From an uncultured Rhodocyclaceae bacterium (GTDB taxonomy: Bacteria > Pseudomonadota > Gammaproteobacteria > Burkholderiales > Rhodocyclaceae): DNA of 64,000 nt. Positions 53,050 through 64,000 of this stretch are shown one piece after another; the first letter of the stretch is position 1, and each line of letters begins with the position of its first letter. The stretch is taken from assembly GCA_907163075.1 (NCBI GenBank), contig CAJQTY010000001.1, forward strand, positions 2,976,001-3,040,000, given 5' to 3'. The position numbers were made by a program, and so were the translations under genes. The notes under the pieces were generated by a model, which made no database searches, was not told the origin of the DNA, and saw only the letters and a program-made list of their open reading frames with translations.

Positions 53050-55974
53050 TCAAGCCGCCGGCGGCGCGCTAACAAAGGCGGCGATATCCACCGCGTCGAT
53101 CTGCTCGGGCCGCATGAAACGCTCGGCGTAGTCGCGATAGACGCCGGAGCGCAGGAAGAGGTCGAACAGGTCGGGATCGATGTGCTGGTCCTTCTTCATC
53201 TGCGCCATGATCGCGATCGCTTCCGAAAGTGTCTTGGCCTTCTTGTACGGGCGGTCAACCGCCGTAAGCGCCTCGAAGATGTCGGCCACGGCCATCATGC
53301 GCGCCAGCAGGCTCATGTCTTCGCCGTGGAGACGCCGCGGATAGCCGGTGCCGTCCATCTTCTCGTGGTGGCCGGAGGACATTTCCGGAACGTTGCGCAG
53401 GTGTTTGGGGAAGGGCAGCCGGGAGAGCATGATGCAGGTCTGGATAATGTGCTCGTTGATTTTGTAGCGCTCTTCCTCCGACAGCGTGCCGCGCGCGACG
53501 CTAAGGTTGTGGAGTTCGCCCTTGTTGTAGAGCAGTTCCGGGACCTGCATCTTGAACCCCCACTCGTTGTCTGCCGGCATCTGGTCCTGGGCGCGCCGTG
53601 GCAGCAGGTGTTCCGGCTTGTCGGCAAGCAGCGGTTCGCTGACCGGCAGTTCCGGCGCCGGCGTTCGCTCCTTGCGTGCCTTCTCTTCGTTGGAGATACC
53701 GATCCGGTCGTCGAGGGTGCGCTGCCAGGTGCGCGCGGCGATCACCCGGAGACGATCCTGTTTTTCGGCCGCCATGAACTCGCCTCCCTCATTGCAGGCG
53801 GCGACGAAGGCAAAGTCGTCGTCGAGTTGCGCCACGGTGTCAGCCAGCATGGCGCGGGCAGCGGACTCCGCCGCGCCGCTGGCAATCGATTTCAGGCAGC
53901 CGATTTCGGCATCGCGCTTGAGCACTTCGAAGCGCATGCGGATTTCGTGGATGCGGTCGTAGAGAGTTTCCAGCTTGGTCGCCTTGTCGACCACGTATTC
54001 GGGCGTCGTCACCTTGCCGCAATCGTGCAGCCAGGAGGCGATGTGGATCGCTTCCCACTCGTCCTCGCCGAGCGTGAAGTCCTTGTAGACACCGCTGGTC
54101 TGCTCGCAGGCGGCGCGTGCCAACATCTTCGTCAGTTCCGGAACGCGGGCGCAGTGGCCGCCGGTGTAGGCGCTCTTGGCGTCGATGGCGCCGGCGATCA
54201 GTTGCAGCATGGCCTGAAACAGCAGCTTCTGGGCGTGGATCAGTTCCTTCGCTTCGAGCGATACGGCGGCCGAGCCGGAGAGCGCCCCGATGAAGCTCAG
54301 TCGGGCGTTGTCGGTTTCACCGGTGCGCAACAGCACCATGGCGCCGACGAGGTTTTGCTGGCGGTTGATCAGCGGCACGGCGATCGCATGGCTGGCGCCG
54401 CTGGCCTTGACCGCGTCGGCCAGGCCAAGGGCGTTGATGTCGGCGTCGGTCAGACGCGCCGAGCAGGCGGTGCGTGCCAGCATGGCGGCCTTGAGTAGGG
54501 GGCTGGCGGCCACCGCATCGGCGGCCGGGGCGCTTGGCGGCAGGGCGCTGCCGTCGGACTTGAGGCCGCTGGCGGGCAGCAGCTTCTCGTTGTCGGTCAG
54601 GTACAGCACGCCGGCATCGGCATCGGCGGCGGACAAGGTTTCGCGCAGCAGGCGCGGCAGGAGCCGGTCGAAATTGTGCTCCGCCGCGACGGCCATGCTG
54701 ATGTCGAGAAAGCGGCGAATCGTGCTTTTCATGCTGTCCATGGTCAGCGCCAGATCACCGACCTCGAGCACGCGGGATTCGACGCCGATCGCGTTCGAGA
54801 ATTCGAAGTGGCGGATCGCTTCGGCTTCGCCCGCCAGTTTGCGCAAGGGTTCCGAGACAGCGCGCGCGAGCCCCCAGGTGGCCGGAATCGCCACCAGGAT
54901 GACCAGCGCCATGGCAATGAACGAGTTGCGAAGAAGCAGGTGGGCGTCGGCCATCAGCTCACTGTCAGGAATGGCGGTGATCAGGAACAGCGGATTGGCG
55001 CCTTCGAGCGCGATCGGGCTGAGCGACACGTGCCATTCATCGCCCGCGGCGTTGAGCAGCAGGTTCTGACCCGTCTCCCCGTCCATGTTCTGGACGATGG
55101 GCGCCAGTTGCGCGAGGACCGGAACGGCAAGTTCGGCGAGCGAGGCGAGCACCGGTTTCCCATCGACAACCGTGGTCGCACTGATGATATTCGCCGCGTC
55201 CTTGTGGGCCAGGATTTTTCCCTCCCGATTGACCAGAACCATCTGCGTGCCGGGCGTTATCTTCTGGCGCGCCAGCGTCTGGTTCAGGGTTTCCAGGTCG
55301 ATGTCGGCGCCGATCACGGCGTCTCCCCGGAACGCCCGGTTGGCGATGGTGGTGCCGACTTTCCTGGTGGTGAAGAAGAGGTAAGGCGCGGTTTTGATCT
55401 GCCCGCTGGCGAGCCGCGCGGCCTTGTACCAGTCGCGGGTGCGCGGATCGTAACTGCGGGCATAATCCGGACGCTCGTCACGGCGCAGGGTGGACAGCGC
55501 CGAATCGAGAAAGATGAAGTGGCCGCGCGGCTTGTCGCCGACGTGCTCGATGCTTTGCACGATGAAACTCGCCTGTGGCGGGGCAGCGAAGTATTCGCGA
55601 TCGCCGTCGTTCCAGAGGCGCCGGAAGAGGAAGAAGTCCCCGTTCGCATAACCGACGTAGAGCGAGGTCAGTTCGGACGAATTGATCAGGGCCTCGCGCA
55701 TCACGCCAAGATTCTCCAGCCGTTGCTCAAGCGATCCGGCCTGGGTGATTGCGCCGAGTCGCAGCAGCCGGGCGGCCATTTCGGCCGGTCTGAAGAGGCT
55801 GGTAAATTCACGCTGCGTTTCGCGTCCGATGCGCAGGCTCAGCTCGCTGGCCGTCGAACTGAGGATGTCGCCGCTGATCTTGTAACCGAGGCTGCCGATC
55901 ACGCCGCCTATGATCAGCAGCAGTGCCAGAAAAAGTGTCGAGATGTGCGTATGGAGAGGAAAGCGGCGTGGCAT
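53050..55974 (-). CDS. Membrane HD-GYP phosphodiesterase (dCache-HAMP-GAF-HD-GYP)
   Basis: A 974-residue sensor that probably breaks down cyclic di-GMP. Two membrane helices (about 12-32 and 350-370) flank a dCache-type periplasmic sensor. Then come a HAMP linker, a GAF domain (about 430-580) and a C-terminal HD-GYP domain. The HD is in ASWLHDCGKV near 640 and HHEKMDGTGYPRRL near 870, with about 200 residues between them instead of the usual 60. Downstream motifs fit the HD-GYP group (VADIFEALTA, DRPYK). Metal ligands look intact. Single gene, divergent from the TIR operon. Confidence 0.9.
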   Translation of the reverse strand: MPRRFPLHTHISTLFLALLLIIGGVIGSLGYKISGDILSSTASELSLRIGRETQREFTSLFRPAEMAARLLRLGAITQAGSLEQRLENLGVMREALINSSELTSLYVGYANGDFFLFRRLWNDGDREYFAAPPQASFIVQSIEHVGDKPRGHFIFLDSALSTLRRDERPDYARSYDPRTRDWYKAARLASGQIKTAPYLFFTTRKVGTTIANRAFRGDAVIGADIDLETLNQTLARQKITPGTQMVLVNREGKILAHKDAANIISATTVVDGKPVLASLAELAVPVLAQLAPIVQNMDGETGQNLLLNAAGDEWHVSLSPIALEGANPLFLITAIPDSELMADAHLLLRNSFIAMALVILVAIPATWGLARAVSEPLRKLAGEAEAIRHFEFSNAIGVESRVLEVGDLALTMDSMKSTIRRFLDISMAVAAEHNFDRLLPRLLRETLSAADADAGVLYLTDNEKLLPASGLKSDGSALPPSAPAADAVAASPLLKAAMLARTACSARLTDADINALGLADAVKASGASHAIAVPLINRQQNLVGAMVLLRTGETDNARLSFIGALSGSAAVSLEAKELIHAQKLLFQAMLQLIAGAIDAKSAYTGGHCARVPELTKMLARAACEQTSGVYKDFTLGEDEWEAIHIASWLHDCGKVTTPEYVVDKATKLETLYDRIHEIRMRFEVLKRDAEIGCLKSIASGAAESAARAMLADTVAQLDDDFAFVAACNEGGEFMAAEKQDRLRVIAARTWQRTLDDRIGISNEEKARKERTPAPELPVSEPLLADKPEHLLPRRAQDQMPADNEWGFKMQVPELLYNKGELHNLSVARGTLSEEERYKINEHIIQTCIMLSRLPFPKHLRNVPEMSSGHHEKMDGTGYPRRLHGEDMSLLARMMAVADIFEALTAVDRPYKKAKTLSEAIAIMAQMKKDQHIDPDLFDLFLRSGVYRDYAERFMRPEQIDAVDIAAFVSAPPAA

Positions 55975-56329: not shown

Positions 56330-56893
56330 ATGGCAACCAGAGCTCCTTACGTTTTCATGTCCTACAAACACGAGCCGAATACCACCGGCGTCACCGAGCA
56401 GTTCTACAACCAGCTGCGCATGTACCAGAAGGGCCTTGGCCTGGCCGGCGTCTTCATGGACAAGGACAAGCTCGCGGCCGGCGGCGTCTGGCGTGCCGAA
56501 GTCCAGGCCGCGCTTGAGCAGACCACCCATTTCGTCGTCATGCTGACCAACGGCTACTGGCTGTCCGACGAATGCCACAAGGAACTGGCGTACGCCGTCG
56601 CCCGCTATCAGCAGGGCGGCGTCGAGGACATGCGCCTGCTCTTTGTCCAGGCGCAGAAAATCGAGGCGGATTTGCTCCTCTTCGACCAGGGCGCCGCCGA
56701 CCCGAACGTCGCCTTCGTCAACAAGGAGTTCGGCAAGGCAAAACTGGAAAAGGTCAGCGACCTCCAGTTTCTCGGGCCGTTCGACGCCTTCGCCCGCCTC
56801 GTCCGGCTGCCGTCGGAGCAGGACCCCCTGCTTGGCGATGCGTTGCACCAGCTGGTCCTGCGCCTCAAACCGACGCTGCAGCCGAAGGTCTGA
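56330..56893 (+). CDS. TIR-domain protein
   Basis: A 187-residue cytoplasmic protein made almost wholly of a TIR (TIR_2-like) domain. The start YVFMSYKHEPN (residues 7-17) and the later HFVVMLTNGYWLSDECHKEL (67-86) are typical; Glu85 sits where TIR NADases have the catalytic glutamate. There is no membrane helix or other domain. Bacterial TIR proteins often consume NAD or make signalling nucleotides in defence, so a role as effector is plausible. It is the first gene of a five-gene unit and is followed after seven bases by an unknown protein gene. The start has GGAG ten bases upstream. Confidence 0.85.
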   Translation: MATRAPYVFMSYKHEPNTTGVTEQFYNQLRMYQKGLGLAGVFMDKDKLAAGGVWRAEVQAALEQTTHFVVMLTNGYWLSDECHKELAYAVARYQQGGVEDMRLLFVQAQKIEADLLLFDQGAADPNVAFVNKEFGKAKLEKVSDLQFLGPFDAFARLVRLPSEQDPLLGDALHQLVLRLKPTLQPKV

Positions 56894-56900
56894 CGCGGAA

Positions 56901-57563
56901 ATGGGCAAGATCAGCTACGTGCAGCGCATGGCGTCGCAGCCGGCCGGCGGCGGCGAACCCCGCGAGCGATGCGTGCGCGCCCTGTGGGCCGAGGACGACA
57001 AGACGGTTCCTATCGTCCAGCTCTTTCAAACGAAGTTCGGTACCTACGCGCAGTACATCCGCCAGCACCACATCCGGCTGGCCGACTTCGACGTGTGCCC
57101 GCTTGCTGGCGAAGCCAGCCGCGCCGCCTACGATCGTGAAAAACTCGGCGACCTGGCGGCGGACGACTTCGTACTGTTCTTTTCCGACGCCTTCCAGCAA
57201 AAGGCCCCGGTGATCAGCAGCTTTTTCGGCAGTTTCACGCCAGAGGACCTGGCACAGGCCGATGCGCCGGTGTTCTGGCTCGGTGCCGCACAGCAGGTCG
57301 ACCTCGACCTGTGGACCGTCGGCGAAACGCCGATGAAAAGATTCCCGTGGAAGCTACTGCACCACGTTCCCCCCGGACGCTTCCGGCGCGAGGATCAGGT
57401 GGCGCTGGACGACGAGGTGGCGACGGCGGTCGGGCGCTTGCTCAAGGACGGGACGGCGACAGCCGCGGAGATTCCCGCAAGCGGTGACCGGCCTGCCGCG
57501 GGCGGTTTTTTCAGGCAGTTGATCGGTTTATTCAATTCTGATCGGAAGGCAAGCCATGGATAG
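56901..57563 (+). CDS. Protein of unknown function in the TIR-MoxR operon
   Basis: A 220-residue soluble protein of no recognised family. The middle has an alternating hydrophobic pattern (ADDFVLFFSDAF, DAPVFWLGAAQQVDLDLW), suggesting a Rossmann-like alpha/beta fold, perhaps a distant TIR or other nucleotide-binding relative. The C-terminus is Ala/Gly-rich and then amphipathic (FFRQLIGLF). Its stop overlaps the ATG of the ATPase by eight bases. It could link TIR and ATPase activity, or be a second effector. The start ATG at 56901 lies just after the TIR stop. Confidence 0.8.
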   Translation: MGKISYVQRMASQPAGGGEPRERCVRALWAEDDKTVPIVQLFQTKFGTYAQYIRQHHIRLADFDVCPLAGEASRAAYDREKLGDLAADDFVLFFSDAFQQKAPVISSFFGSFTPEDLAQADAPVFWLGAAQQVDLDLWTVGETPMKRFPWKLLHHVPPGRFRREDQVALDDEVATAVGRLLKDGTATAAEIPASGDRPAAGGFFRQLIGLFNSDRKASHG

Positions 57564-58737
57564 CTTCATCGGTTCCGGCGACTCGGCGGCGCTCAAGCGG
57601 ATACCGCCGCCGTGGGTAAATTCGAAGGGGCAGGCGGTTCTGAGCGAGCAAAGCCCCGGCCATCCCGCCGGCTACCAGGCCGACCCGGGCCTGGTCGAAG
57701 CGGTCAATACCGCCCTCATCCTGAACAAGCCGCTGCTGCTCACCGGCCGGCCGGGGACCGGCAAGAGCGAACTGGCCGAACGCATTGCCTGGGAACTCGG
57801 CATCGCGCCGGTGCTGCGCTTCGAGGCGCAGTCGCTGACCGAAGCGCAGGAGCTGTTCTACCGCTTCGACCTGGTCGGCCAGATGGCCGACGCGCAGCTC
57901 GCCTCGGCGCAAAAGCGCTCGCCGATGCCGGCCGAACACTTCCTCACGTTTGGCCCGATCGGCAAGGCCATCCTCTACGCCAACCCCGGACCCTACGCCG
58001 ATCTGCTCAACTATGACCGGCGCGCCGACGCCGGCGCCACGTGCGTTTCGGAGCTTTCCTCAGCGACCGCGATACCGGCGCCGGCTGGCGTCCTCGGCGC
58101 CACCGCCGCGGTCTGCGAAGCGCGGCGCAGCGTGGTGCTCATCGACGAGATCGACAAGGCCGCGCGCGACGTCCCGAACGATCTGCTGAACGGCATCGAA
58201 CGCATGGAATTCCGCATCCGCGACCTGCGCAACCGGCCGCTGGCGGCGCCCGACGACCCGCGCTTCCGGCCCGTTCTGGTCATCACCAGCAACTCCGAAC
58301 GCGATCTGCCCGAGCCCTTTTTGCGCCGCTGCGTTTTCTATCACATTCCCGATCCGACCCAGGACAAGCTGCGCGAGATCCTGCGCGCGCGGGTGCAGGG
58401 CCTGGCCATGCCGCCGTCCAGCGGCTCCGGATCGCCCGCCGACGAGGCGGCGCGTGCGCCGCTGCAACCCTTCTATGAGGCGCTGCTGTCCTTCTTTGTC
58501 GCCTTCCGTGACGATCAGGCGGCGCATACCACCTACACGCCGGGAACGTCGGAGCTGCTCGACTGGGTGCGCGTGCTGAAGCATCTCGACGCCAGTCCGC
58601 AGTCCGATCTCGCGGGCAACAAGGTGCTCCTCGAGCGCACGCTCAGTGCGGTGGTCAAGCACGGCGACGACGTCCGGGTGCTGCTCGACGCCTTCAAACG
58701 GCTGCGCAAGGTCGATCTGAGGCCGGTGCCCGCCTGA
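57556..58737 (+). CDS. MoxR-type AAA+ ATPase of the TIR/WD40 operon
   Basis: A 393-residue AAA+ ATPase. Walker A GRPGTGKS (64-71), Walker B VVLIDEIDK (193-201), sensor 1 SNSERD (245-250), and arginine finger region PEPFLRRC (252-259). It is longer than MoxR proper, with an insertion between Walker A and B (about 115-185), and lies in the McrB/MoxR part of the superfamily. MoxR ATPases act on vWA-domain partners, and the next gene has a vWA-like part. The next ATG follows its stop directly (TGAATG), so the two are coupled. Confidence 0.88.
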   Translation: MDSFIGSGDSAALKRIPPPWVNSKGQAVLSEQSPGHPAGYQADPGLVEAVNTALILNKPLLLTGRPGTGKSELAERIAWELGIAPVLRFEAQSLTEAQELFYRFDLVGQMADAQLASAQKRSPMPAEHFLTFGPIGKAILYANPGPYADLLNYDRRADAGATCVSELSSATAIPAPAGVLGATAAVCEARRSVVLIDEIDKAARDVPNDLLNGIERMEFRIRDLRNRPLAAPDDPRFRPVLVITSNSERDLPEPFLRRCVFYHIPDPTQDKLREILRARVQGLAMPPSSGSGSPADEAARAPLQPFYEALLSFFVAFRDDQAAHTTYTPGTSELLDWVRVLKHLDASPQSDLAGNKVLLERTLSAVVKHGDDVRVLLDAFKRLRKVDLRPVPA

Positions 58738-61700
58738 ATGGCCGCCACCGCCAGTCCGGCTGAAGAGAGTACGCGCTTTCGCTGGTTCAGCGGCGGCAGC
58801 GTGGACTCGCTGGTGATTTTCCTGCGCGAGCGGGGCTTCAGTGTCGGACCGTCGGAGGCCATCGACGCCGTGCGGCTCGTTCTGCACCTCGCCCGCCTAC
58901 AGCCGCCACCCGACCCGCAGCACCACGCCGAGTGGCTGGCGCCCAAGCTGCGCCCGGTCTTTTGCAAGAACCGCGAGGATCAGGAGCGGTTCGATGCGTT
59001 GTATGCCGAATGGGCGAGGGGCGAAATCTACCCGCCGGGGCGTGGTGTGCTGCCGGCTCCGGCGGGGGCTGGGGAGGCGACTGTCGCTGCCCCGCCACAC
59101 CGATCGCGCCGATCGCGCCGGGAAGTGCTGATCCTTGCCGTGCTCGTCATCGTGCTGGTTTTTCCGGTGTTTTTCTTCCTGCGCGATCGTCCGGCCAGCA
59201 CGGCGGTTCCGGCGCCGGCCCCGGTTCCAGCGACTAGCGTAACGGCGCCAGTTGACCGCGGCTCCGCCCCGGTGGCGCAGCGTGGGGAGGGGGAACGCTT
59301 CTACGGCTTTTTCCCCGCCGTGCGCTACAACCTGGAGCTGCGGCCGTGGGTCGGCGGCGGGCTGCTCGGCCTCGCCGCGCTCGGGCTGCTTGGCCTGGCG
59401 ATTCCCTTCGCCGCGCCGTGGCTCAGCCATTCCCGGCGCAGCGGGCGGCCGATCACGCTCGACGACAGCAGCCTGCGCCAGGAGGCCGCGCGTATCGTGC
59501 CGCCGCTGGCGCCCGCAGTCAGCGCCCGCCTTGAGCGCCACGTCTCCGGCCCGGCCGCGCTGCGCGACCGCCTGCAGCGTCGTCCGCCGCTGCACATCCG
59601 GCGCACCATCGACGCCACGCTGAGGAAACTCGGCGTGCTCCAGTTGCGTTACCGGGCGGCGCGACTGACGCCATCCTACCTGCTGCTGGTCGATGTCGCC
59701 GATGAGCAGGACCCGCGCGGCCGGATGTTCTACCACTGGGCGCAACGTCTGAAACGCCAGGGCATCGAGGTCGAGATCCGGCTCGTCCGCTACGACCGGG
59801 AGACGGGAAACGCACTGACCGTGCGCCCGCCGAACAGCGCGTGGAAACTGGATGGCGCCGACGGCGCGCCGCTCGACCAGCTGCCCGCACCGCCGGTGGG
59901 CCAGCGCCTGATCGTCGTGTCCGACGGCGACTTTCTCGTCGATCAGGCCGGGCACTGGCGCGACTGGGCGATCCGTGCCGGCTTTCGCCGCTGGCCCGAC
60001 CGCGCCGTGTTCACTCCGGTCGAGCCGCGCAGCTGGGGCGCGCGCGAAGACGCCATCGAACGCGCCGAGCGCAGCGCCGACCCCGGCTTCATCGTCCTCC
60101 CGCTCGACGAATCGGCGCTCGCCGCGTGGTCGGAACTGGTGGTCAGCGGCCGCCTGCCGGACTTCAACCTCAGCCGCCCGCAGCGTTATCCCCGCCTGCT
60201 CCGCGCCCTGGAAGACCAGGGGCTGGACGAGCAGTTGCTCGACGACGTGCCACCCTTCGAACGCGACGCCGAGCTCGCCGACCTCGTCGCCCAGCTCAAG
60301 CTCTACCTCGGCGAGAACGGCTACTACTGGCTGTGCGCCTGCGCCGTGCCGCCCATCGTGCGCTGGCAGATCACGCTGCTGCTGGGCGAGCAGTACCTGC
60401 TCAACGCCGGGGTCGACGAGGCGGATCTGCCCGACTTCATCAGCCGTTACTACGCCCGGCTCGCCAGCCTGCCCTGGATGCGCCGGCAGAAAATGCCTGA
60501 CTGGCTGCGCCTGGCACTGCTCGACAGCCTGCCGCCAGCCATCCAGCACGAGGTGCGGCAGGTCGTGCTGAGCCGGCTCGGCAAGCTCAAACCGTCCGCC
60601 GAAGGCCACGAAACCTTGCAACTGGAAGAACCGCCGGGCCCGCTCGGCCTGCGCCGCAAGCCGGTTGCCGACGGCGAAGCACCGCTGGCCGACACGCTCT
60701 ACCTCGGCTTCATGGACGGCCGCACGCCGCGCCAGCTCATGCTGCGCGCGCCGAGCGAGTGGTCGGACTGGCTGCAGCGGCTGCCGTCCAACCGGCGCCC
60801 CGGCTTATGGCGCGACTGGCTCGGCGCGCTGCGCGACCGCCTGCTGTGGCGCAAGGGCCTGAACTTTTTCGGCGCCTCGCGCCGCGCCTGGCTGGTTTTT
60901 TCGCTGGCCATGGCCCTGCTCCTTGGCGCCACCGCCTGGCTGGCTGCCGGTGATCCCGGGCAACTGGCACCGGCGCTGGGCGAGGTGCTTTACACTGAGC
61001 AGGGGCGGGCGGTCGCCTTTCCGCATCGCAGCCTGGTGCGCGTCGTCGCCTTCAGTCCGGACGGCCGCCGTGTGCTGACCGCCAGCGACGATCGCAGCGC
61101 CCGCCTGTGGGACGCCGCCAGCGGCGCTCCCCTGGGTGCTGCGATGCGCCACGACGATGCGGTTTATGCCGCCGCCTTCAGCCCGGACGGCCGCCGCGTC
61201 GTGACCGCAAGCCGGGATGCAAGCGCCCGCCTGTGGGACGCCGCGAGCGGCCTGCCCGTGGGTGACGTGATGCGCCACGGGGGTGCGGTTAATAGCGCTG
61301 CCTTCAGCCCGGATGGCCGCCGCGTGGTGACCGGCGGCGATGACCTGACCGCCCGCCTGTGGGACGCCGCGAGCGGCACTCCGCTGTGGCTTATGTTCCA
61401 CGAGGGCGCAGTCTGGGATGTCGCCTTCAGCCCGGATGGCCGCTACGTGGTGAGCGCCGCGAGCGACGACAACGCCCGCCTGTGGGACGCCGAGAGCGGC
61501 CGGCTGCTCGCTGAAATGCGCCATGGCGGTGAGGTGTACTCCGCCGCCTTCAGCCCCGACGGTCGCCGTGTGGCGACCGCCAGCGCGGATTTCAGCGCCC
61601 GTCTGTGGGACGCCGCGAGCGGCGCTCCTGTGGGCGCCGCGATGCGCCACGAGGGTGCGGTCTATAAGGCCGCTTTCAGCGCCGACGGCCGCCGCGTGCT

Positions 61701-63663
61701 TACCGCCAGCCGGGATTCCACGGCGCATCTATGGGACGCCGCGAGCGGGCGCCCGCTTGGCGAACCGATGCGCCATGCGGGCGAGGTCAACGGCGCCGCT
61801 TTCAGTGCGGATGGTCGCCGGGTCGCGACGGCAAGCATTGATGGTAGCGCCCGCCTGTGGGACGCCGAGAGCGGCGCTCCGCTGGGCGAGGCGATGCGCC
61901 ATGACGGCCAGGTCAATGCCGCCGTTTTCAGCCCGGACGGCCGCCGCGTGGCGACCGCCAGCGCGGATTACAGCGCCCGTCTGTGGGATGCGCCGCGTGC
62001 GGCGACGCTGGGTGCGGCGATGCGCCATGAGCGCCGGGCGAGCCGTGTCGCCTTCAGTGCGGACGGCCGCCGCGTGGTGACGGCCAGCGATGACCAGACC
62101 GCCCGTCTGTGGGATGCCGCGAGCGGCGCGCCGCTCGGCGCGGCGATGCGCCATGAGGGTGCGCTGACTGCCGCCGCCTTCAGCCCGGACGGCCGCCGCG
62201 TGGTGACCGCCAGCAGTGACCAGACCGCCCGCCTGTGGGACGCCGCCAGCGGTGCGCCGCTCGGCGAGGCGATGCGCCACGCGGTGACGGTCAACAGCGC
62301 CATGTTCAGCCCGGACGGCCGCCGGGTGGTGACCTCCAGCCAGGACAATACCGCCCGCCTGTGGGACGCCGCGAGCGGCCTGCCTCTCGGCGAAGCGATG
62401 CGCCACGACGGTGAGGTCAACAACGCCGTTTTCAGCCCGGACGGGCGCCGTGTGGCGACCGCCAGCGACGATTCCAGCGCCCGTCTGTGGGACGGCGAAA
62501 GCGGCCGCGCGCTGGGCGCCGCGATGCGCCACGAGGCGCCGGTCACTGATGTTGCTTTCAGCCCCGATGGCCGCCGCGTGGTGACCACCAGCCAGGACCA
62601 GAGCGCTCGCCTGTGGGACGCCGCGAGCGGCCTGCCGCTCGGCGAAGCGATGCGCCATGCCGGCACGGTGTACTACGCCGCCTTCAGCCCGGATGGCCGC
62701 CGCGTGGTGACCGCCAGCGCCGATCAGACGGCCCGCCTGTGGGACGCCGAGAGTGGCCGTCCGCTGGGCGCCGCGATGAGCCATGAAGACCGGGTCGTGT
62801 ACGCCGCCTTCAGCCCCGACGGCGCCGTACTGGTGACCGTCAGCGCCGACCAGACCGCCCGCCTGTGGGACGCCGCGAGCGGCCGTCCGCTGGGCGAACC
62901 GATGCGTCACGAGGGCCGGGTGTGGCACGCCGCGTTCAGCCCGGATGGCCGCCACCTGGCCACGGCATGGGGGTCGTATCCACCCGTGCCGGCGGCGGCC
63001 GTTGCTCCGCCACTCGCGCCTCCGGTGATGGTGGCGCCGCAGAATCTGCGCATTCCGGCCGGGACGAAGGCCGCCGGGGCCGCCGCCAGCAAGAAATCAT
63101 TGCCGTCAGCGCCAACCAGAACCGTGTCGCCTAGCGCGCCGGCCAAGGAGGCTGGCAAGCTCGATACTCCGCTACCCGCGTCCCCGCAATCCACTCAGCC
63201 GCCGCAAGACCTGCGACAAGTGCCTGGCGCTCCCGAGATTCAACCTCAGCAGCAACAGCAGATACAGCAGCAACCGCAGCAACCGCAGCAACCGCAGCAA
63301 CCGCAGCAACAACTGCTTCCCCGTTCCGCCCCGCAATCCAGCCAGTTGCCTGGCGCGCCACTCGCCACGCTGCATGATGTGCTGGGCGGCCTCATTCCTT
63401 CCGCCTTGGCCGCCACCGGCGATGCAGCCCCTGTCGTGCAGACTGAGGTGCCGGTCGGCATCGCTTGGCGCGGCGGCGCATTGCTCTGGCGCGTGCCGCC
63501 GAATCCCTTGCCGATGCCGCAACCAGGCCGCAGTGTTTCTCCGGGCCTGATCGCCATGCTCCATGCCGTGGCCGCGGGGGGCGGCGCGGTGCTGTTACTG
63601 GCCTTGGGCTGGCGTGCGCGGCGCCGGCTGGCGGCGCTGAGTGATGCGCAGGTGAATCCATGA
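58738..63663 (+). CDS. Large membrane protein: CoxE-like N-terminus, vWA-like domain, WD40 array, Gln-rich tail
   Basis: A 1641-residue protein. Residues 1-128 include a CoxE/vWA-associated N-terminal motif (GFSVGPSEAIDAVRLVLHLAR). Membrane helices lie at about 129-148, 205-228, 717-737 and 1612-1632. Residues 229-716 are soluble; 312-470 look like a vWA domain with a degenerate metal site (LLVDVADEQ for DxSxS) and IVVSDGDF. From about 766 there are 15 full and one partial WD40 repeats, most of 42 residues, with a consensus AFSPDGRRVVTASxDxTARLWD; they are nearly identical to each other. The tail (about 1410-1610) is Pro/Gln-rich. Basic residues before helices 1 and 3 and after helices 2 and 4 predict the WD40 array is periplasmic. 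Probably the sensor of the system. Confidence 0.9.
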   Translation: MAATASPAEESTRFRWFSGGSVDSLVIFLRERGFSVGPSEAIDAVRLVLHLARLQPPPDPQHHAEWLAPKLRPVFCKNREDQERFDALYAEWARGEIYPPGRGVLPAPAGAGEATVAAPPHRSRRSRREVLILAVLVIVLVFPVFFFLRDRPASTAVPAPAPVPATSVTAPVDRGSAPVAQRGEGERFYGFFPAVRYNLELRPWVGGGLLGLAALGLLGLAIPFAAPWLSHSRRSGRPITLDDSSLRQEAARIVPPLAPAVSARLERHVSGPAALRDRLQRRPPLHIRRTIDATLRKLGVLQLRYRAARLTPSYLLLVDVADEQDPRGRMFYHWAQRLKRQGIEVEIRLVRYDRETGNALTVRPPNSAWKLDGADGAPLDQLPAPPVGQRLIVVSDGDFLVDQAGHWRDWAIRAGFRRWPDRAVFTPVEPRSWGAREDAIERAERSADPGFIVLPLDESALAAWSELVVSGRLPDFNLSRPQRYPRLLRALEDQGLDEQLLDDVPPFERDAELADLVAQLKLYLGENGYYWLCACAVPPIVRWQITLLLGEQYLLNAGVDEADLPDFISRYYARLASLPWMRRQKMPDWLRLALLDSLPPAIQHEVRQVVLSRLGKLKPSAEGHETLQLEEPPGPLGLRRKPVADGEAPLADTLYLGFMDGRTPRQLMLRAPSEWSDWLQRLPSNRRPGLWRDWLGALRDRLLWRKGLNFFGASRRAWLVFSLAMALLLGATAWLAAGDPGQLAPALGEVLYTEQGRAVAFPHRSLVRVVAFSPDGRRVLTASDDRSARLWDAASGAPLGAAMRHDDAVYAAAFSPDGRRVVTASRDASARLWDAASGLPVGDVMRHGGAVNSAAFSPDGRRVVTGGDDLTARLWDAASGTPLWLMFHEGAVWDVAFSPDGRYVVSAASDDNARLWDAESGRLLAEMRHGGEVYSAAFSPDGRRVATASADFSARLWDAASGAPVGAAMRHEGAVYKAAFSADGRRVLTASRDSTAHLWDAASGRPLGEPMRHAGEVNGAAFSADGRRVATASIDGSARLWDAESGAPLGEAMRHDGQVNAAVFSPDGRRVATASADYSARLWDAPRAATLGAAMRHERRASRVAFSADGRRVVTASDDQTARLWDAASGAPLGAAMRHEGALTAAAFSPDGRRVVTASSDQTARLWDAASGAPLGEAMRHAVTVNSAMFSPDGRRVVTSSQDNTARLWDAASGLPLGEAMRHDGEVNNAVFSPDGRRVATASDDSSARLWDGESGRALGAAMRHEAPVTDVAFSPDGRRVVTTSQDQSARLWDAASGLPLGEAMRHAGTVYYAAFSPDGRRVVTASADQTARLWDAESGRPLGAAMSHEDRVVYAAFSPDGAVLVTVSADQTARLWDAASGRPLGEPMRHEGRVWHAAFSPDGRHLATAWGSYPPVPAAAVAPPLAPPVMVAPQNLRIPAGTKAAGAAASKKSLPSAPTRTVSPSAPAKEAGKLDTPLPASPQSTQPPQDLRQVPGAPEIQPQQQQQIQQQPQQPQQPQQPQQQLLPRSAPQSSQLPGAPLATLHDVLGGLIPSALAATGDAAPVVQTEVPVGIAWRGGALLWRVPPNPLPMPQPGRSVSPGLIAMLHAVAAGGGAVLLLALGWRARRRLAALSDAQVNP
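61046..62970 (+). repeat. WD40-coding tandem repeat array
   Basis: About 15 units, mostly of 126 bases (42 codons), each with the core TTCAGCCCGGACGGCCGCCG and CGCCTGTGGGACGCC. The units are highly similar at base level too, so the array is likely to gain or lose units by recombination and could be misassembled. Confidence 0.9.
63271..63309 (+). repeat. 9-base tandem repeat coding Gln-Pro-Gln
   Basis: Four perfect copies of CAACCGCAG (Gln-Pro-Gln) followed by a partial one, inside a longer Gln-rich stretch (63241-63318) of the WD40 protein gene. Such repeats change length easily by slippage, in whole codons, so the reading frame is kept. Confidence 0.85.
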
Positions 63664-64000
63664 GCGAGCCGGCACAGCCCAGTATCGATAACGCCGTGCC
63701 GGAACCGCAGGCAGACGGGTTTTGGGCACGTACCTGGCGCCTGACGGGTATTCTTGCCGGGCTGATCGTCGCGCTTCCGATGGTCATGGTTTTCGGCATG
63801 CTGCGTGGCCTGCGCTGGCTGGCGCGGATGCAGCCCGTCCTGGCGCGATTCGCTTGGCGGCTCGCCGGCTCGCCGTTGCCGGCTCGCCTGCTGGCGCTGG
63901 GCGGCATGGTCGCGGCGTTGACGCTGGCGCTGGTGGCGCTCGGGCTGGACGGCGCAACGGCCTGGGACGCGCGCATCGGCGTGCTGATCGGTGTCGGCGC
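63660..64000 (+). CDS. Membrane protein, cut by the window end
   Basis: The first 113 residues of a protein starting MSEPAQPSIDNAVPEP. Two membrane helices are visible (about 29-49 and 82-103). The ATG overlaps the WD40 protein stop (ATGA), so it belongs to the same unit. No family can be named from this part. The acidic N-terminus followed by a basic loop (RGLRWLARMQ) suggests the N-terminus may not cross the membrane simply. Confidence 0.75.
   Translation, partial: MSEPAQPSIDNAVPEPQADGFWARTWRLTGILAGLIVALPMVMVFGMLRGLRWLARMQPVLARFAWRLAGSPLPARLLALGGMVAALTLALVALGLDGATAWDARIGVLIGVG

Follow-up and report, generated by a model that had tools for sequence, protein, structure and literature searches.

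The last part of the analysed window, a 64,000-nucleotide stretch of DNA from an uncultured Rhodocyclaceae bacterium, carries five coupled genes starting at position 56330, all on the forward (+) strand, as are the features described below. Gene 1 (56330..56893) encodes a TIR protein of 187 aa, gene 2 (56901..57563) an orphan protein of 220 aa, gene 3 (57556..58737) a MoxR protein of 393 aa and gene 4 (58738..63663) a vWA/TM/WD40 protein of 1641 aa. Gene 5 starts at 63660 and runs past the window's end at 64000. Successive junctions consist of a 7-base gap, an 8-base overlap, TGAATG and a 4-base ATGA overlap, as originally described, and the assignment of TIR, MoxR and WD40 parts is borne out by Pfam matches to TIR_2 (1.1e-9), AAA_5 (2.4e-12) and WD40 (2.9e-135). 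The same five genes occur in the same order in five further genomes of the window's family. The gene set is thus confirmed as a real observation and, because the order recurs in five other genomes, the arrangement is more than chance. About 260 bases 3' of gene 5, a terminator-like hairpin precedes a run of eight T (L005:12772-12789); it is one of 18 hairpin-plus-T sites found, versus 6.7 in shuffled sequences. No sigma-70-like promoter was found.

Gene 5 had been listed as a further membrane protein. The membrane part of this description stands, but it is incomplete, since the full-length product (949 aa; L005:9660-12509, ending at window coordinate 66509) is a multi-TM protein with a C-terminal TIR domain (TIR_2, 4.5e-10; residues 803-901), the second TIR of the operon. 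The fifth protein is multi-TM and, in some genomes, TIR-tipped. In gene 1, Glu85 is invariant in all six orthologues, and we take it to be the candidate catalytic Glu of TIR NADases; together with a TIR_2 match above the cut-off, this residue makes gene 1 a putative NADase by sequence. Gene 3 is a MoxR-clade AAA+ ATPase with a canonical P-loop (GRPGTGKS). It is 38-63% identical to the MoxRs of five relatives, and the MoxRs of the six five-gene loci form one clade (support 100/100). In the alignments, the reading of gene 5 of L016 and of the MoxRs of L021 and L023 began at an in-frame non-start codon.

Gene 4 is built, in order, of an N-terminal domain, TM1-TM2, a vWA domain, a vWA-L-like domain, TM3, a WD40 array, a P/Q-rich linker and TM4. 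The N-terminal domain (approximately 58780..59022) is conserved in relatives and takes the label CoxE-like, by analogy, from iSTAND systems, in which the vWA protein starts with a CoxE-like 4-helix domain (PMC7159879, section 20). All four TM segments were assigned by hydropathy. TM1 (residues 130-148; 59125..59181) has clear K/R flanks in the window and L016 and weak ones in the remaining four orthologues, while those of TM2 (residues 208-226; 59359..59415) are just slightly uneven. The putative vWA domain (residues ~309-472; 59662..60153) is predicted to be cytoplasmic; the second-ranked match of its structure model is NorD from the complex with NorQ, the MoxR protein that partners it. The post-vWA domain (residues ~486-615; 60193..60582), strongly conserved in the family and helical in the structure model, is likely the vWA-L linker domain, a name given by position after PMC8195603 (section 6). 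TM3 (residues 719-737; 60892..60948) exceeds the threshold in five of six orthologues, and TM4 (residues 1604-1622; 63547..63603), followed by a short Arg-rich tail, in all six; the K/R flanks of both are uneven. Between them lie 16 WD40 blades, the last of which is partial (residues 762-1431; 61021..63030), predicted to be periplasmic. In a relative (L017), PASTA domains follow the TM segment. Gene 4 would accordingly have four inner-membrane crossings, with the WD40 blades facing the periplasm and the N-terminal domain and vWA part the cytoplasm. The propeller is thus probably located outside the inner membrane.

The 16 WD40 anchors of gene 4 include 13 full repeats of 42 aa. These average 69% identity (range 50-79%), which does not agree with the original description of near-identical arrays. 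Entropy and pN/pS were calculated from the 13 full-length repeats, excluding the incomplete final repeat and two others of 41 aa. Of the 42 blade columns, the five most variable include all four that are equivalent to selected codons of HET-E. These four have a pN/pS of 1.23, compared with 0.28 for the 35 columns that remain once the seven most variable are set aside. Blade variation thus clusters at positions whose equivalents in fungal HET-E are under diversifying selection. Moreover, in gene 4 of two Denitromonas species the N-terminal part is 95% identical and the C-terminal part (WD40, linker and TM4) 84%. The comparison of WD40 blocks between loci covered the 16 blocks called in the window, with one spurious block at TM3, one tie and the last blade missed, and just four recognised blocks for L025; L022 and L023 were left out.

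Gene 2, present in all six five-gene loci, was originally listed as an unknown protein, in agreement with the absence of any Pfam, NCBIfam or PADLOC match or of a match among PDB sequences at E 10. Its structure model is not usable (mean pLDDT 42.7); its alternating strands and helices are compatible with a Rossmann-like fold. Profile comparison (hhalign) with gene 1 gave a score of 26.5 and an E of 0.003 at a probability of only 10%, a score reached by none of 150 column shuffles. Control profiles gave E values of 0.029 (MoxR), 0.058 (Pfam-defined iSTAND set) and 0.69 (gene 5), and the match was weaker with a broader TIR set (0.068) and with the TIR portions taken from TIR-iSTAND proteins (0.45). 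Gene 2 lies in the 'third component' position and is possibly a degenerate TIR/Rossmann-like domain. Among 274 genomes of the class, only the window's copy was found. The sole other match of P0002 in 399 genomes of the order (G007) was rejected, as inspection by eye places it within the reading frame of a glyoxalase-like gene.

The five-gene system is rare and patchily distributed within one family. Gene 4 (60% or more) and full-length gene 5 occur in exactly the same six of 395 family genomes, Accumulibacter and Denitromonas being among the hosts, and in none of 19 other genomes of the same genus. L024 and L016 denote one and the same contig, as do L029 and L017. In four same-genus genomes carrying the upstream gene, homology with the window stops at points between 55661 and 56017; the system and the other flank are unmatched in these stretches (one only 3.2 kb long, at a contig end), and no clean empty site was found in them. 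With respect to mobile carriage, none of 78 pattern matches to gene 5 in viral contigs was confirmed, no gene 5 relatives were found in plasmids and gene 4 was not found in phages. Relatives of gene 4 with 25-31% identity are carried by four plasmids. Of six loci scanned, L022 alone adjoins a tRNA.

Taken together, the original interpretation is partly supported. We put the probability that the operon is a membrane-anchored MoxR-vWA conflict (immune) system at about one in two, and an envelope-sensing TIR immune system is the most likely prediction. A ligand, for instance a phage particle or ejection protein or some other envelope factor of foreign origin, would bind the diversified propeller face and thereby change the vWA part. 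The MoxR ring, with ATP, could then act as a threshold switch that remodels gene 2 and the TIR protein or sets them free from the complex, and the freed TIR would hydrolyse NAD+ or make an NAD-derived signal. Gene 5 may serve as membrane executor or second TIR, and the infected cell would in the end stop growing or die. The fully specified version would be a further type of MoxR-vWA system, a transmembrane immune receptor with a periplasmic WD40 propeller diversified blade by blade, as in a fungal NLR, and a MoxR-driven vWA switch acting on a TIR/pseudo-TIR pair and on a TIR channel in the membrane; it is offered tentatively and is doubtful in its entirety.

A role in the maturation of a membrane complex outside defence, of the CoxD-CoxE, NorQ-NorD or RavA-ViaA kind, with the TIRs merely as interaction modules, would fit the NorD-NorQ match of the vWA model and could have the multi-TM gene 5 as client. 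We consider it unlikely, given the two TIR genes in the operon, the patchy distribution within one family, the fast evolution of the C-terminal part of gene 4 and the trypsin-like, caspase and iSTAND modules of relatives; nor was a metalloenzyme gene noticed by eye at the loci. Alternatively, the propeller might sense neighbouring cells instead of phage, through their envelope factors or factors delivered by contact, the TIRs killing or arresting the cell in self/non-self or kin recognition. Bacteria such as Accumulibacter and Denitromonas, both among the hosts, grow in flocs or granules, and the predicted periplasmic sensor and a propeller variability like that of the fungal allorecognition protein HET-E are in line with such a role. 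Inspection of the loci by eye showed no gene for a secreted or contact toxin, however, and the present data do not distinguish neighbour from phage ligands; we regard this reading as rather improbable.

Least convincing is a split or decayed iSTAND system, in which genes 1 and 2 would be a broken TIR-iSTAND protein. Their combined length is 407 aa versus 427-462 aa for the TIR-iSTAND proteins of four relatives (the start of L017 trimmed by hand), and they occupy the same place. Yet gene 2 shows no match to the iSTAND part (hhalign E 0.4; 0.058 for the Pfam-defined set), all five frames are open in six of six genomes and the window's gene 2 shares 53% identity with that of L025, making such a decay very unlikely. 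Most predicted bacterial immune receptors are cytoplasmic. If the propeller indeed lies outside the inner membrane, the predicted immune system would represent a bacterial equivalent of a transmembrane receptor coupled to TIR. We know of no experiment showing how MoxR-vWA switches control TIR effectors, and none was evident from titles or abstracts among the papers listed; the system would offer a testable case for such control.

The original prediction likened the MoxR, vWA and TIR parts to NTP-dependent conflict systems but knew of no published named system with the membrane-anchored fusion and a TIR gene ahead of the ATPase. The five-gene clade is a variant, and not wholly new: its MoxR and vWA-type pair appears to fall within the ternary conflict systems built on MoxR and vWA (Kaur et al. 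2020, PMC7159879), gene 3 being of the MoxR-clade AAA+ type that characterizes them. The placement is near the iSTAND branch because in relatives the gene 5' of MoxR contains iSTAND, joined to TIR, trypsin-like, DUF4062 or (under the cut-off) EAD8 domains; caspase is also among the relatives' modules. Six of ten scanned genes of relatives have an iSTAND Pfam match, one (L037) under the cut-off. As in the iSTAND systems, where about 28% of vWA proteins have TM segments (PMC7159879), a MoxR accompanies a vWA-type protein that bears TM segments, judged by hydropathy, a conserved N-domain and variable C-terminal modules, and several relatives have TIR in the gene 5' of MoxR. Unlike them, the five-gene clade has a stand-alone TIR and orphan gene 2 with no TIR-iSTAND fusion or iSTAND at the locus, and adds the multi-TM TIR gene 5 and a WD40 array followed by a fourth TM. 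The window's proteins have no iSTAND match in Pfam, gene 2 is unmatched by iSTAND profiles, and PF19995 is absent from five of the six cassette genomes and lies on another contig in G756. No Pfam match named VMAP-C was found in the window's proteins, the presence of that model in the library not being established.

Compared by description, TERNS3 ternary systems (PMC8195603, section 6) also carry a third component with a new alpha+beta fold in a 5' gene, in most cases linked to TIR; there, however, vWA and vWA-L are separate genes and TIR is fused to TERNS3, whereas the window has one vWA/vWA-L-like protein and a separate TIR. Beta-propeller (bp) MoxR-vWA systems (PMC7159879, section 22) share the fusion of vWA and a C-terminal propeller in one polypeptide, but with about four blades against the 16 that lie beyond a TM segment in gene 4. 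The window's bpMoxR match is weak, at 24.2 bits below the cut-off of 27, its P-loop is GRPGTGKS rather than GXXXTAKS, and no TPR/propeller protein is found among the other genes of the set. According to PMC10907252, DGR-diversified MoxR/vWA sensors of Thiohalocapsa and others likewise place a vWA protein with a diversified C-terminal sensor beside MoxR and TIR/protease effectors; here, diversity lies in WD40 blades and no retroelement was noticed by eye at the five-gene loci. The fungal HET-D/HET-E NLRs, as presented in PMC1805685 and PMC2873952, are unrelated proteins with a NACHT ATPase and no MoxR or vWA, and provide an analogy only: in both, tandem WD40 blades vary at the same relative positions on a homogenised backbone.

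The five coupled genes predicted from window position 56330 onward were confirmed, as were the descriptions of the first three products. Gene 1 encodes a TIR protein (TIR_2, 1.1e-9), gene 2 a protein without a match in family searches, and gene 3 a MoxR-type AAA+ ATPase. Gene 4 encodes a 1641-amino-acid protein with WD40 blades, in which a vWA domain is well supported. Gene 5 crosses the window edge at 64000 and, read in the genome (where the window spans G000:C1:2976001-3040000), ends at window coordinate 66509. It has 11 hydrophobic segments and carries a C-terminal TIR domain (4.5e-10). Between the transmembrane part and this domain lies a conserved soluble region (approximately residues 431 to 800; L005:10950-12059 in the stretch holding gene 5), in which strand-like and helix-like stretches alternate by eye and for which no Pfam family was found.

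Scanning genome contigs with gene 4 devoid of its WD40 part yielded 18 loci, 19 of 105 matched stretches being confirmed; since the scan relied on two short peptide patterns, relatives without either were missed. Five loci, from Denitromonas halophila SFB-3, Zoogloeaceae G21618-S1, D. ohlonensis SFB-1, Dechloromonas sp. Dech2017 and an Accumulibacter MAG, share 57-59% identity across nearly all of the non-WD40 part. The genes grouped in the original prediction co-occur elsewhere, in the order TIR, gene 2, MoxR, gene 4, gene 5 at all five. Glu85 is invariant in all six gene 1 TIRs, and a TIR match is present in three of four scanned gene 5 products (window, L016 and L025), with no hit in that of D. 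halophila (L021). A tyrosine-integrase-like gene, recognized by eye, lies shortly 3' of the D. halophila system (L021:17547-18977) and was not seen at the equivalent place in L022.

Among 395 family genomes, 27 contain gene 5 matches, full-length in six only; in the remaining 21, the match lies in the TIR part. Gene 4 matches occur in 13 (six at at least 60%, seven at 31-35%), and the former six are the genomes with full-length gene 5, so that within this family gene 4 of the present type is accompanied by the corresponding gene 5 (6/6). Neither gene 4 nor full-length gene 5 was found in 19 other same-genus genomes. The gene preceding the system in the window (53050-55974) has a homologue in one same-genus genome (L086, G582:C2), which matches over its last two thirds alone and contains one internal stop.

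D. halophila and D. ohlonensis share 97-98% identity in TIR, gene 2 and MoxR and 92% in gene 5, compared with 95% in the N-terminal and 84% in the C-terminal part of gene 4. The first blades are still 94-96% identical; from alignment column 1001 onward, identity falls to 71-84%, linker and tail included. Between the window and L025 on the one hand and the other four loci on the other, identities of TIR (36-39%) and gene 2 (16-29%) are far below those of MoxR (57-62%). The TIR/gene 2 pair therefore changes more rapidly than the core, by divergence or by exchange.

Over 13 full repeats, the most variable of the 42 repeat columns are 8, 5, 25, 23, 7, 3 and 4. In the available text on Podospora HET-E, positive selection is reported on codons 7, 9, 25 and 27, with a conserved codon lying between the members of each pair (PMC1805685); columns 5, 7, 23 and 25 surround conserved V6 and D24 with identical spacing, on which the equivalence rests. 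At these columns pN/pS is 1.23, versus 0.28 for the 35 columns that remain after removal of the seven most variable, and their pN was reached by 1 of 300 random four-column sets. Of 15 genuine blocks in the window, 14 find their best match in the array to which they belong, as do 13 of 15 at L016 and 10 of 10 at L021, and one of four recognized blocks at L025. Judged from these repeats, most arrays, not all, evolve in concert.

The MoxRs of the six five-gene loci form a single clade (support 100/100) on a long stem, with that of L017, a more distant relative, nearest (unstarred support 88/89). More distant relatives combine MoxR with a protein resembling gene 4, which terminates in FGE-sulfatase, PASTA or caspase-plus-FGE-sulfatase domains. 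The gene 4 relative at L017 (L017:5607-9485) has WD40 and two PASTA stretches beyond its transmembrane segment, which supports an extracytoplasmic C-terminal part. In these more distant relatives, the gene 5' of MoxR encodes TIR, trypsin-like, DUF4062 or, under the cut-off, EAD8 domains. An iSTAND match was obtained in six of ten such genes scanned (under the cut-off at L037), and none at L027, L033, L034 and L038. Pooled C-terminal parts of the TIR-bearing L017, L019, L020 and L037 proteins match iSTAND as a profile (E 6.8e-20); taken singly, those of L017, L019 and L020 gave no Pfam iSTAND hit. Several conflict-type genes lie together at L018:12467-17870, where a protein with two TIR stretches occurs near a MoxR-vWA pair and, by eye, a TIR-like gene accompanies an ATPase/FGE-sulfatase-like gene. 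A putative diversity-generating retroelement lies beside the distant relatives of the system at L019:15804-17657 and L020:3950-6794, where a reverse transcriptase together with Avd-like and FGE-sulfatase-like genes was likewise recognized by eye.

The genes themselves, their TIR, AAA+ and WD40 domains and their co-occurrence are established from sequence. We propose that the blades would sense on the outer side, MoxR-vWA would act as a switch and TIR would give the output; topology, order of events, NAD chemistry and purpose are predicted. Patchiness, the variable sensor and kinship favour a candidate defence role.

The original prediction knew of no published named system that matches the membrane-anchored fusion and the TIR gene ahead of the ATPase. 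This gene set is not described in the literature texts read, although supplementary tables may list it; the wider family is the known iSTAND branch of MoxR-vWA ternary systems, following the available text of PMC7159879. Some bacterial WD40 arrays have been implicated in innate immunity (WRAP; PMC9218822, in the text available). Scanned proteins of the five-gene clade lack iSTAND; gene 2 gave no match to it in profile comparison, and it is absent from five of the six genomes, the sixth carrying it on another contig. The iSTAND2 and TERNS3 systems (PMC8195603, in the text available) show the third component to be replaceable, and gene 2 with the TIR may represent a further replacement of this component.
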